Assembly: GCA_016871195.1 (NCBI GenBank) | Contig: VFZN01000013.1 | Coordinates: forward strand, 1-64,000 | DNA length: 64,000 nucleotides | Origin: Acidobacteriota bacterium | GTDB taxonomy: Bacteria; Acidobacteriota; Vicinamibacteria; Vicinamibacterales; UBA2999 | Reading direction: 5' to 3' | In this document: piece after piece, positions 26,813 to 30,590 of the stretch | Position numbering within the stretch: the first letter of the stretch is position 1 | How the letters are laid out: each line of letters starts with the position of its first letter | Notes under the pieces: model-generated | What the model was told of the DNA's origin: nothing | The model's input: only the letters and a program-made list of their open reading frames with translations | The model's database searches: none | Translations under genes and position numbers: made by a program

Positions 26813-27884
26813 GGGCCACCACCTGATCGGCAATGCGCGCCGCCGCATTGGCATGCGCGAGGGTGCGGGCACGGGCACTCATCGCCGCGCGCCTCGGGGC
26901 ATCGGTCGCCAGCGCCAGTACGGCCTCAGCCAGGCGTGCGCCGGTCAGCGTGGCCTGCTCGAGGACCAGCGCCGCACCGTCGCGGGCAAACGCCTCGGCG
27001 TTCTTCCGCTGATGGTCATCCGTCGCCGTCGGCAGCGGCACCAGAATCGCCGCCCGCCCAGAGGCCGCCAGCTCAGACAGCGTTGTCGCTCCGGCGCGAC
27101 AGACCACGAGATCGGCGTCGCGCATGGCCTGATCCATGTCGTACAGAAACGCGTCGACGTGCACGTCCAGCGCAGTCTGTGCATACCCCGTGGTGACCTC
27201 CGCCTGGTCACGCGCCCCGGTCTGGTGCGTCACCTGCAGCGCCACGCCCGAGGCCGCCAGCAGCGGCGCGGCCTCGACCATCGCCCGATTAATCGCCTGT
27301 GCGCCCTGCGACCCACCAGACACCAGCACACGGACCCGCGCCCCGTTCACGGCCACGGCCGCAGGTGCGTGAAAAAAATTCTCGCGCACGGGATTGCCCG
27401 CCAGAAAACCCACACGGGGGAAGAACCGCAGCGCCTCGGCGAAGTTGACGGCTGCCGCCCGCACGACCGGCGCGAGCAGCCGGTTGGTCAGGCCCGGCAG
27501 CGCATTTTGCTCCAGCAGCAGCGTCGGCATCCGTCGCAGCGCCGCCAGAGCGAGCACTGGCCCTGACGAGTAGCCACCGACGCCCACCACCACCGACGGA
27601 TGCCGCACCGAAAGAACGCGCCACGCGTCAATTGCTGACAGGGGCAGGGTCAGCAGGCCGCGCACCAGTGCCACGACCGACTTCCCCTTCAGCCCGGCCA
27701 CGCGAATCGTGTCGAGCACAAATCCTTCGCGCGGCACGACGCGACTCTCAAGGCCCGCCATGGTGCCAACAAACGTCACCACGGTCGACGCATCGCGCCG
27801 CTGCAGTTCGCGGGCGACCGCGATGCCCGGATACAAATGGCCGCCGGTGCCGCCACCGGCGATGAGCACGCGACGGGGCATCAT
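26802..27884 (-). CDS. murG: UDP-GlcNAc:undecaprenyl-PP-MurNAc-pentapeptide transferase MurG
   Basis: A 360-residue GT28. Family motifs: IAGGGTGGHLYPGIAVA (first G-loop), GGYSSGPVLALAAL, VSGGSQGAQAIN (third G-loop) and LVVCRAGATTLSELAASG, then LPTATDDHQRKNAE. It makes lipid II from lipid I at the inner face of the membrane. The ATG at 27884 overlaps the ftsW stop as ATGA. The long upstream extension in frame is antisense-like sequence inside ftsW and is rejected. Confidence 0.95.
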   Translation of the reverse strand: MMPRRVLIAGGGTGGHLYPGIAVARELQRRDASTVVTFVGTMAGLESRVVPREGFVLDTIRVAGLKGKSVVALVRGLLTLPLSAIDAWRVLSVRHPSVVVGVGGYSSGPVLALAALRRMPTLLLEQNALPGLTNRLLAPVVRAAAVNFAEALRFFPRVGFLAGNPVRENFFHAPAAVAVNGARVRVLVSGGSQGAQAINRAMVEAAPLLAASGVALQVTHQTGARDQAEVTTGYAQTALDVHVDAFLYDMDQAMRDADLVVCRAGATTLSELAASGRAAILVPLPTATDDHQRKNAEAFARDGAALVLEQATLTGARLAEAVLALATDAPRRAAMSARARTLAHANAAARIADQVVALAG

Positions 27885-28990
27885 GTCGATTTCCGTCCCT
27901 GGCTGACATGCTGCGAGATGTTCAGCAGCACCCCGACACCCACGAGATTGATCAGCAGCGACGACCCGCCGGCACTGACGAGCGGTAGCGGAATGCCCTT
28001 GGTCGGTGCCAGCCCCAGCACGACGCTCATGTTCACGAATGCCTGCAGCACGAGCATCAGCGTGAGACCGAGCGCGAGATAGGAACCGAATGGATCCTGA
28101 ATGCGCGCTGACAGCCGAAGCCCGCGCCATGCCAGCACACAGAAGCACGCCAGCACGATCACGGCGCCGACCAGGCCTGTCTCTTCGGAAATCACCGCAA
28201 AGATAAAGTCGGTGTGCGGGTCGGGCAGGTAGAAAAATTTCTGCGTGCTCTGCATCAACCCCTTGCCCGTCACACCGCCGGTGCCCACCGCCTGCAGCGA
28301 CTGAATGATCTGGAAGCCATCGCCGCGCGGATCGGTCCAGGGGTCGAGAAACGTGGTCAGTCGGCGCCGTCGATAGTCGGCCTGCATGAGGACGACGAAT
28401 GCCGCCGGCACTCCCACCAGCAGGATGGTCCCCATGTAACGCCAGCTGAGACCCGCCGCAAACACCATGCAGCCGACCACGGCCACGATGGCGACCGACG
28501 TGCCGAAGTCTGGCTCGATGACGATAAGCCCGGCGAGCGTGCCCACCACCGCAATGATGGGCAACAGAGTCTGGGGGATGTCGTTGATGCGATCCGCCCG
28601 TCGCTCAAGCATGATCGCGGCGAACAGAATTGCCGCCAGCTTCGCCACTTCCGAGGGCTGGATGCCAAAGCCCGCCAGGCCAAACCAGCGCCGCGCGCCA
28701 TTGATCGGCCGCGAGAACAGAACGGCCACCAGCATCACCACCACCAGACCCAGCAGCGTCCACATCAGCCGGTCATTGCGATACCGTCGATAGTCGACGT
28801 GCATCATGCCCACCATGAAGACGCAGCCCAGCAGGGCCCACATCAGCTGCTTGCTCGAGAAGGCCGTCGATTGCTGGAAGCGGACGTCGGCCATGACCGC
28901 CGACGCGCTGTACACCATCACCACGCTGATGAGCACCAGCGCAATGGTGGCTATGAACATCCATCGATCCGATTGCAGCTTCTGGGCCAT
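27881..28990 (-). CDS. ftsW: septal peptidoglycan glycosyltransferase FtsW
   Basis: A 369-residue SEDS protein with about ten membrane helices, starting MAQKLQSDRWMFIATIALVLI. The family segments are LAGFGIQPSEVAKLAAILF, IIQSLQAVGTGGVTGKGLM, HTDFIFAVISEETGLVGA and LPLVSAGGSSLLINL. It polymerises glycan from lipid II at the septum with FtsI. It is preceded by a 217-base gap holding a large inverted-repeat structure, the only sizeable gap in the dcw cluster. Confidence 0.95.
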   Translation of the reverse strand: MAQKLQSDRWMFIATIALVLISVVMVYSASAVMADVRFQQSTAFSSKQLMWALLGCVFMVGMMHVDYRRYRNDRLMWTLLGLVVVMLVAVLFSRPINGARRWFGLAGFGIQPSEVAKLAAILFAAIMLERRADRINDIPQTLLPIIAVVGTLAGLIVIEPDFGTSVAIVAVVGCMVFAAGLSWRYMGTILLVGVPAAFVVLMQADYRRRRLTTFLDPWTDPRGDGFQIIQSLQAVGTGGVTGKGLMQSTQKFFYLPDPHTDFIFAVISEETGLVGAVIVLACFCVLAWRGLRLSARIQDPFGSYLALGLTLMLVLQAFVNMSVVLGLAPTKGIPLPLVSAGGSSLLINLVGVGVLLNISQHVSQGRKST

Positions 28991-29067
28991 GCGAACTGTC
29001 GCGTCTCTCTTTCTTCCGATACGGGGCTAAAGTTTTCCGCGCCCGGTTCGATACAACGGATGCGGTG

Positions 29068-29199
29068 CACAGAAGCCGCCAGCGGTCGTCAGCCGACTGA
29101 GGGGATGAGACACAGGTCTCGCAGGCGGAACTGCCTGCGTTCCCAGCGACCCGCTCTCACCCGCCATCATCCGACTGACGACAGCTCACGGCTTCTGTG
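29068..29199 (-). repeat. 132-bp nested inverted-repeat element between murD and ftsW
   Basis: Outer arms CACAGAAGCCG (29068-29078) and CGGCTTCTGTG (29189-29199) are perfect 11-base complements. Inside lie GTCGTCAG (29085-29092) with CTGACGAC (29175-29182), then TGAGA plus GGG (29102-29110) with TCTCACCC (29155-29162), GGTC with GACC, and an apical CGCAGGC/GCCTGCG stem (29120-29126, 29133-29139) with a 6-base loop. The nesting is colinear, so the RNA would fold as one long rod. No ORF or T-run is seen. It may be a structured leader or processing site for ftsW, or a MITE-like insertion; no clear target duplication flanks it. Confidence 0.65.
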
Positions 29200-29207
29200 T
29201 GACGTGC

Positions 29208-30590
29208 CTATTCGGTCCCCGCGGCTGCCGATGCCAGCCGCGTCACCTCCTCCCGAAACTGCTCTCCCCGGTCCGCATAGTCGCGGAACATGTCAAAACT
29301 CGCGCAGGCGGGCGCCAGCAGCACCACCCCGTCGGGCCGAGCCCGTCGCCAGGCCAGCGCCACGGCGTCTGCCAGCGTGTCGGCCTCGTCAACCGGCACG
29401 GTGTCCGCCAGCGCCTCGCGCACCTGCGGCCGCGATTGCCCGATGGCAACGACACCCCGCCCGTGCTGCGCCAGCGGCAGCGCCAGATCGCGCAGGTCGC
29501 CGCCCTTGAACACGCCGCCGACGATGGCAACCACGGCATCAAAACTTTCGATCGACCGTGCGGCGGCCTCGATGTTGGTGGCTTTCGAATCGTTAATGAA
29601 TCGCACGCCCTGGACAGCGCCCACGGGTTCCATCACATGCGGCAGCCCCCGGAAGTGCTCGAGCGCGCGCTGCATCCCCGCAGAGCTCGCGCCCGCCAGG
29701 TGGGCGACGGTGCAGGCGGCCACAACGTTGCCCTGCTGGTGCGCGCCGGGCACCTGCACCATGTGCAGCGGTACCAGTACCTGCGTGGTGCCGTCTGCAG
29801 CCCGATGCCTGATCGCCCCGTCGTGCACAAAGACTGACGTGCCGCCCGACGGCTGCCGTCCATAGCGCACCACCTGCGCATGCGAGACCGTCGCCATCCG
29901 GCACGACGTGTCGCTGTCGGCGTTGATCACGAGCCAGTCGCCGTCGGTCTGGCGTGCCGTGATGCGGGCCTTCGCCTGCCAGTACGCCTCGAACGTGGCA
30001 TGCCGATCGAGATGATCGGGTGACACATTCAGCACGGCAGCAATCCACGGGTGAAACGTGTCGGTCGAATCGAGCTGGAAGCTGCTGGCCTCAACCACGT
30101 GCAGGGTCTCGGGCGTTGACGCATCGACCTGTGCACTGAGCGGCACGCCGATATTGCCGCCGACCAGCACGGGGTGACCGGTGGCCTCGAGCATGTGTCC
30201 GACCAGTGCCGTGGTGGTCGACTTGCCCTTGGTGCCGGTGATGGCAATCAGTCGCCCGCGAATCCAGCGAGCGGCCAGTTCGAGCTCGCCGATGACCGGC
30301 ACGCCTGCGGCACGGGCCGCGGCCAGGGGGGCCAGTGTGGTTGGCACGCCGGGGCTGGTGACAATCAGATCGGCCGACGTGAAGAGGGCCTCGGTGTGCT
30401 GTCCCAGTTCGAGCTGCACCGACGCGACCTGCAGCGCCACCGTATCGGCCTCGGGCAGCGAGGCCCGCGCATCCGTCAGCGTGACGAGCGCCCCGCGACG
30501 CGCCAGCAGCAGCGCGGCGGCGACGCCGCTGCGGGCGGCCCCCACCACCAGCACGCGCTGGCCTGCGACGGAGAACGGTGCGGGCATCAT
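29208..30590 (-). CDS. murD: UDP-N-acetylmuramoylalanine--D-glutamate ligase MurD
   Basis: A 460-residue Mur ligase. An N-terminal Rossmann segment (VLVVGAARSGVAAALLLARRG) precedes the ATP loop ITGTKGKSTTTALVGHM, followed by LNVSPDHLDRHATFEAY and the C-terminal FINDSKATNIEAAARS. It adds D-Glu to UDP-MurNAc-L-Ala. The start overlaps the mraY stop (ATGATG/TGA). It ends 217 bases before ftsW. Confidence 0.95.
   Translation of the reverse strand: MMPAPFSVAGQRVLVVGAARSGVAAALLLARRGALVTLTDARASLPEADTVALQVASVQLELGQHTEALFTSADLIVTSPGVPTTLAPLAAARAAGVPVIGELELAARWIRGRLIAITGTKGKSTTTALVGHMLEATGHPVLVGGNIGVPLSAQVDASTPETLHVVEASSFQLDSTDTFHPWIAAVLNVSPDHLDRHATFEAYWQAKARITARQTDGDWLVINADSDTSCRMATVSHAQVVRYGRQPSGGTSVFVHDGAIRHRAADGTTQVLVPLHMVQVPGAHQQGNVVAACTVAHLAGASSAGMQRALEHFRGLPHVMEPVGAVQGVRFINDSKATNIEAAARSIESFDAVVAIVGGVFKGGDLRDLALPLAQHGRGVVAIGQSRPQVREALADTVPVDEADTLADAVALAWRRARPDGVVLLAPACASFDMFRDYADRGEQFREEVTRLASAAAGTE

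Follow-up and report, generated by a model that had tools for sequence, protein, structure and literature searches.

The murD-ftsW intergenic region

The window, which is the whole stretch of 64,000 nt analysed here, carries on its minus strand a dcw cluster, one of the most conserved operons of bacteria, in which mraY, murD, ftsW and murG are named by NCBIfam. The upstream gene murD (29208..30590, minus strand; TIGR01087, 412.9 bits) and the downstream gene ftsW (27881..28990, minus strand; TIGR02614, 382.7 bits) are separated by a gap of 217 bases (28991-29207, by the open reading frames of the window) which houses an inverted repeat at 29068..29199. Read in the dcw-sense direction (minus strand), the repeat begins 8 nt past the murD stop codon and ends 77 bases before ftsW. 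The initial annotation had placed it at 29068-29199, after murD and about 78 bases before ftsW, in the sole large gap of the cluster, and both statements agree with the open reading frames.

The 132 bases were observed to fold far better than shuffled sequence. The minus strand reaches -93.9 kcal/mol compared with a shuffle mean of -60.8 (z -7.9), while the plus strand, folded as 148 nt, reaches -78.6 kcal/mol compared with -55.0 (z -5.6), and none of 200 shuffles was as low in either case. The five nested stems described in the initial annotation were recovered as stated, except that an 8-nt purine-rich internal loop is located near the top of the rod.

Structure and covariation

The element consists of three helices, all defined on the minus strand. 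The outer helix P1 is formed between residues 29165..29199 (5' arm) and 29068..29102 (3' arm), as seen from the minus-strand fold and from covariation, with changes on both sides in 16 of its 26 pairs. The middle helix P2, which belongs to the core, pairs 29148..29162 with 29103..29118 and shows such changes in 14 of 15 pairs; its 3' arm carries a conserved GUGUC that includes one bulged G, as found in the core alignment. P2 is followed by the asymmetric internal loop GCUGGGAA (29140..29147), located from the alignments, and by the apical hairpin P3 (29120..29139), in which residues 29139-29133 pair with 29126-29120. The pairing in P3 is almost complete (99.5% of cells) and is retained even where its sequence is swapped entirely, as in members L013, L052 and L054. 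The apical loop (29127..29132) is AGUUCC in the window and RCCCC in most members. Together, P2, the GCUGGGAA internal loop, P3, the CCCC apical loop and the bulged GUGUC form a core of 78 nt.

The hairpin is a conserved structured RNA, as the covariation among related genomes confirms. Changes on both sides were found in 37 of the 49 consensus pairs, and 282 compensatory cells were counted, whereas shuffles gave 86.4 (sd 11.7) and controls with slid partners at most 60. Similarly, pairing holds in 95.7% of cells, and sliding the partners lowers this share to 43.9% or less. Neither of the two outcomes named as refuting in the initial annotation was therefore seen, since the fold has a large energy advantage over shuffles and the related genomes show strong covariation.

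In the internal loop, GCUGGGA does not vary in any of the 52 host copies or in the 26-sequence core alignment that includes phage copies. Residues UUCC of the apical loop in the window are complementary to the GGAA found in the internal loop, and at least three contiguous Watson-Crick pairs between these two loops (GGG with CCC) can form in 50 of the 52 sequences. Since the internal loop never varies, we infer this pseudoknot between the apical and internal loops from complementarity, as a possible interaction. In P1 of the host copies, a near-invariant G.G mismatch was noticed where a UGA faces a UGA (first-row positions ~29187/29084 of alignment A2), and the P1 sequence carrying this mismatch is absent from the phage cores. 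A K-turn was considered and rejected by eye, because the sequence does not fit the G.A/A.G pairs that such a motif calls for.

The strand of a structured RNA can be read from the asymmetry between G.U and A.C cells. On the dcw-sense strand the non-Watson-Crick cells comprise 378 G.U and 38 A.C, a ratio of about ten to one, and the minus strand is lower in energy than its antisense in all 52 sequences. Because G.U greatly outnumbers A.C and the sense fold is always the more stable, the selected molecule is an RNA on the minus strand, co-directional with the dcw genes.

Distribution in Vicinamibacterales

Two covariance models were used to follow the element. The model R1 has 133 positions and was built partly from the window sequence, which it matches at 29066-29197 on the minus strand with 121.8 bits; it matches 155 of the 162 genomes of the order. 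The model R2 describes the core, is not palindromic, and matches 153 of the 162 genomes, at one place in nearly every genome, where the misses are draft assemblies. The second R1 match observed per genome came for the most part from reading this palindrome on its opposite strand, and was gone with R2. R1 matches in genome G438 and in G008:C10 were discarded as simple GCAGTC-type repeats; the two G438 loci, L207 and L208, are long palindromes of degenerate GCAGTCG(G) repeats which trigger R1 through a chance likeness to the outer arms.

The source genome contains a single copy: a search there recovered the element, its reverse complement and nothing else, and R2 gave one match. With BLASTN, most of 59 relatives showed strong similarity over about 120 bases, and the element lies between murD and ftsW in all 52 relatives that were fetched with both flanks. 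A single conserved, covarying copy before ftsW is what the initial annotation had expected of a regulatory RNA. Scanning 84,980 named species genomes for a sequence pattern yielded 110 stretches. Among the 80 matches listed, 74 are flanked by murD and ftsW and six run off the stored stretch; nearly all of those listed are titled Acidobacteria or Vicinamibacterales, and a few carry other titles, for example Acidimicrobiia or Cyanobacteria. The order name given to the carriers follows these record titles. No convincing host copy was found elsewhere in the phylum Acidobacteriota, and where murD and ftsW are adjacent in its other orders they abut or overlap (gap of -73 to 58 nt).

Among the 52 relatives, the distance from the murD stop codon to the RNA has a median of 6 nt, and the RNA overlaps the 3' end of murD in 25. 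The distance from the RNA to ftsW has a median of 104 nt and ranges from 37 to 357 nt. Genome G114 (L260) has two tandem core copies between the two genes, at 1941-2018 and 2162-2239.

Core copies in phages and mobile regions

The core also occurs outside the dcw cluster. Pattern scans of viral contigs revealed six distinct viral copies (L210/L211, L232, L233/L234, L235, L236 and L239). In addition, genomes G005 and G151 have second copies in which R1 finds only the core to be kept, and R2 detects a core copy beside phage-like genes in G090 and another in a prophage-like region (L258, 2985-3062) of G079, which belongs to another order of the class. In G079 no copy is present at murD-ftsW, where the two genes overlap. 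The core copies L201 and L202 belong to mobile regions and have ArdC-like and HigB/HigA-like genes as neighbours, and a tRNA is found close to L202. Most of the loose viral pattern matches (L237, L238 and L240-L257) were judged by their fold to be chance, L263-L268 did not match R2, and a search for the core in INPHARED phages gave noise only.

Among the genes next to core copies, PHROGs identifies an Rz-like spanin, a tail fibre protein, a terminase and an endonuclease, and Pfam identifies ArdC and HigB. As examples, the L210 copy lies in an Rz-like spanin region, the L235 copy at a tail fibre gene and the L202 copy at a nuclease gene. We read open reading frames beside the copies in L232, L258 and L259 as putatively holin-like. 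A stop codon is found a short way upstream of most phage and mobile copies, and the majority of the copies close a run of late or lysis-region genes. Several of them (L210, L211 and L232) are at the end of late genes and before convergent genes, while the copies in L233 and L236 are within structural gene runs and not at an end.

A sigma28-like motif on the opposite strand

The plus strand carries, in the stretch that separates the RNA from ftsW, a conserved motif, TAAAGTTT-N11-TTCGATAC (29028..29054), whose spacing is that of a sigma28 (FliA/WhiG) promoter, for which it is a candidate. It is oriented into the RNA and antisense to murD. The consensus of the motif on this strand is TAAAGTTY-N11/12-YCGAWA(C). 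The relaxed motif was found in 34 of the 52 gaps, with a shuffle expectation of 0.02, and never on the sense strand; as the pattern was written after the sequences had been seen, these counts make the evidence look stronger than it is. By eye, a closely similar variant can be seen in most of the other gaps, and the strict motif occurs once in the 3.08-Mb source genome, at this site. The strand bias and the uniqueness of the motif are plain despite the post hoc pattern. A sigma28 promoter calls for a TAAAGTTT-N11-GCCGATAA-like sequence and a cognate sigma factor in the genome, and both were found for the predicted promoter: 20 of 21 relatives, the source genome included, encode FliA/WhiG-type sigma factors with scores over the cut-off of the family.

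Proposed function

We tentatively favour, at a probability somewhat short of even, an RNA that acts in cis on the 3' side of the upstream transcript as an intercistronic module of mRNA processing or stability. Its function may be tied to the upstream mRNA because the RNA hugs murD, because the distance to ftsW varies and because the positions of the phage copies agree with this. In the initial annotation the element was an RNA that could set the ratio of Mur enzymes to FtsW/MurG/FtsZ; by its anatomy it belongs with the 3' end of murD more than with ftsW. The long outer helix P1 would either be cut as double-stranded RNA or stop exonucleases that degrade in the 3'-5' direction, and an RNA-binding factor of the host would grip the core, which is compact and possibly pseudoknotted. 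In the host, mraZ-murD and ftsW-murG-ftsZ would thereby become uncoupled halves of the mRNA, each with its own half-life, and phages would recruit this factor to the 3' ends of their late or lysis-region transcripts. Plain exonuclease blocks such as REP hairpins need no invariant internal loop, and for this reason the module would need an added specific ligand or protein.

Several observations support such a module. The RNA is on the sense strand (G.U 378, A.C 38), its structure is under selection and it is attached to murD; the phage and mobile copies follow shortly after stop codons and mostly lie at the ends of gene runs. An intrinsic terminator, searched for as a GC hairpin with a U run, was not found on the minus strand, which is consistent with a module without a terminator of its own, and in orders without the RNA the gap does not reach a comparable size (-73 to 58 nt). 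The puf operon is a precedent for intercistronic hairpins that cause differential decay, as reviewed in PMC7509114. Counting against the module are the need for an added ligand or protein, the L233 and L236 phage copies within structural gene runs and the conserved opposite-strand promoter motif, which it leaves unexplained.

Among the alternatives, a trans-acting RNA seems somewhat unlikely. Here the hairpin would be cut from the dcw transcript or be a stable product that acts elsewhere, for example by binding a protein, with phages carrying decoys or their own versions. The occurrence of the core in unrelated gene contexts, phages included, and the variable spacing to ftsW would suit it, as would UpsM, an sRNA derived from a dcw leader (PMC5089854). 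Such an RNA would, however, not need strict murD-ftsW synteny across the order, and the conserved unpaired bases are in an internal loop where they may be paired, leaving no evident free seed. An RNA produced from the other strand, as a transcript antisense to murD that starts at the sigma28-like promoter, would account for the presence of the motif in 34 of the 52 gaps, where 0.02 would be expected, and for the FliA/WhiG-type sigma factors in 20 of 21 relatives. We regard it as very unlikely since the G.U to A.C counts and the lower energy in 52 of 52 sequences show that it is the minus-strand RNA whose structure is selected. A MITE-like insertion had also been proposed in the initial annotation, and a mobile palindrome (MITE or REP) or a site at the DNA level, such as a cruciform or a protein-binding palindrome, would fit the long inverted repeat and the presence of some core copies in mobile elements. 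MITE and REP elements have many non-syntenic copies per genome, whereas this one has a single copy at one syntenic place across the order, no other full-length copy and compensatory changes, which refutes the MITE. An excess of G.U over A.C is, moreover, a mark of RNA that a DNA site would not be expected to show, and the whole group of such explanations is extremely improbable.

Two further explanations place the effect downstream of the RNA. A transcription-elongation element, as in the processive antitermination of HK022 put or Bacillus EAR, could be carried by the polymerase into ftsW-ftsZ and into phage late genes. The sense strand, the position within operons, the lack of specificity for the downstream gene and the sharing with phages agree with this, but it makes little sense at operon ends that face convergent genes (L210, L211 and L232), and we consider it decidedly unlikely. 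A cis-regulatory switch of ftsW, whether a riboswitch, an attenuator or a protein-binding leader, is quite improbable in our view. Its conserved pocket-like core, possible pseudoknot and constant position upstream of ftsW in the host are what such a switch would show. On the other hand, 37-357 nt of poorly conserved or unconserved sequence separate the RNA from the start codon, neither a conserved terminator nor an anti-SD adjoins it, and the core copies in phages without ftsW argue against an ftsW-specific switch. For a riboswitch in particular, no expression platform was seen next to the gene.

Returning to the processing or stability module, a wider and more speculative picture, which as a whole we think unlikely, is that of a new RNA class. 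A pseudoknotted core bound by a dedicated host factor would serve Vicinamibacterales in their division and cell-wall operon and phages in their late or lysis-region transcripts. In the host the antisense sigma28-type promoter would oppose it, and the border of murD and ftsW would thus hold a two-strand switch. Throughout an order, an RNA of about 130 nt occupies one fixed point of the dcw cluster, with both its structure and its sequence kept. Together with the phage core copies, the element may offer a handle on the balance between the wall-synthesis and division segments of the operon outside the model phyla, and it points to a putative RNA-binding partner.

Comparison with known RNAs

The initial annotation knew of no described element with these arms, and this still holds for the sources searched. 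A scan of the window with Rfam 15 gave only miRNA-precursor noise far below the cut-offs and nothing at the gathering cut-off, ten phage and mobile loci gave tRNAs only, and no description of an RNA between murD and ftsW was found in the literature. 6S RNA (RF00013) is likewise a long rod-like hairpin RNA, and it was rejected as a candidate: RF00013 does not match here, and 6S RNA lies elsewhere (G000:C19:28825-29012, 86.8 bits) and was found in 20 of 21 genomes, away from the locus.

The intercistronic hairpins of the Rhodobacter puf operon, which give its segments different decay rates (Klug and Cohen 1990, in PMC7509114), are proposed as a functional analogue; the likeness is one of function and not a comparison of homology, and the relevant passage of PMC7509114 describes neither a conserved internal-loop core nor phage copies. 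UpsM, an sRNA from the dcw leader of Rhodobacteraceae, resembles the element in being a structured RNA transcribed with dcw in one clade only (PMC5089854). UpsM, however, precedes mraZ, has its 3' end at a Rho-independent terminator and is a substrate of RNase E, while the element is found after murD and ahead of ftsW, lacks a terminator of its own, belongs to another phylum and has phage relatives.

Further parallels are found among the motifs of Weinberg 2010 (PMC2864571). The mraW motif (RF01746) is also a conserved RNA structure of the dcw cluster but is associated with mraW in Actinomycetales and had no match in the Rfam scan. The L17 downstream element (RF01708) is structured, is on the 3' side of a gene and had its strand likewise inferred from G.U pairs, whereas its gene and taxa are different and no Rfam match was obtained. 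The manA and wcaG motifs are RNA structures common to bacteria and phages, as is the core, but they are leaders of metabolic genes with another structure and again had no Rfam match. The element is therefore, apparently, an undescribed RNA family of a known general kind, and what sets it apart is the combination of a fixed place in the dcw cluster with relatives in phages.
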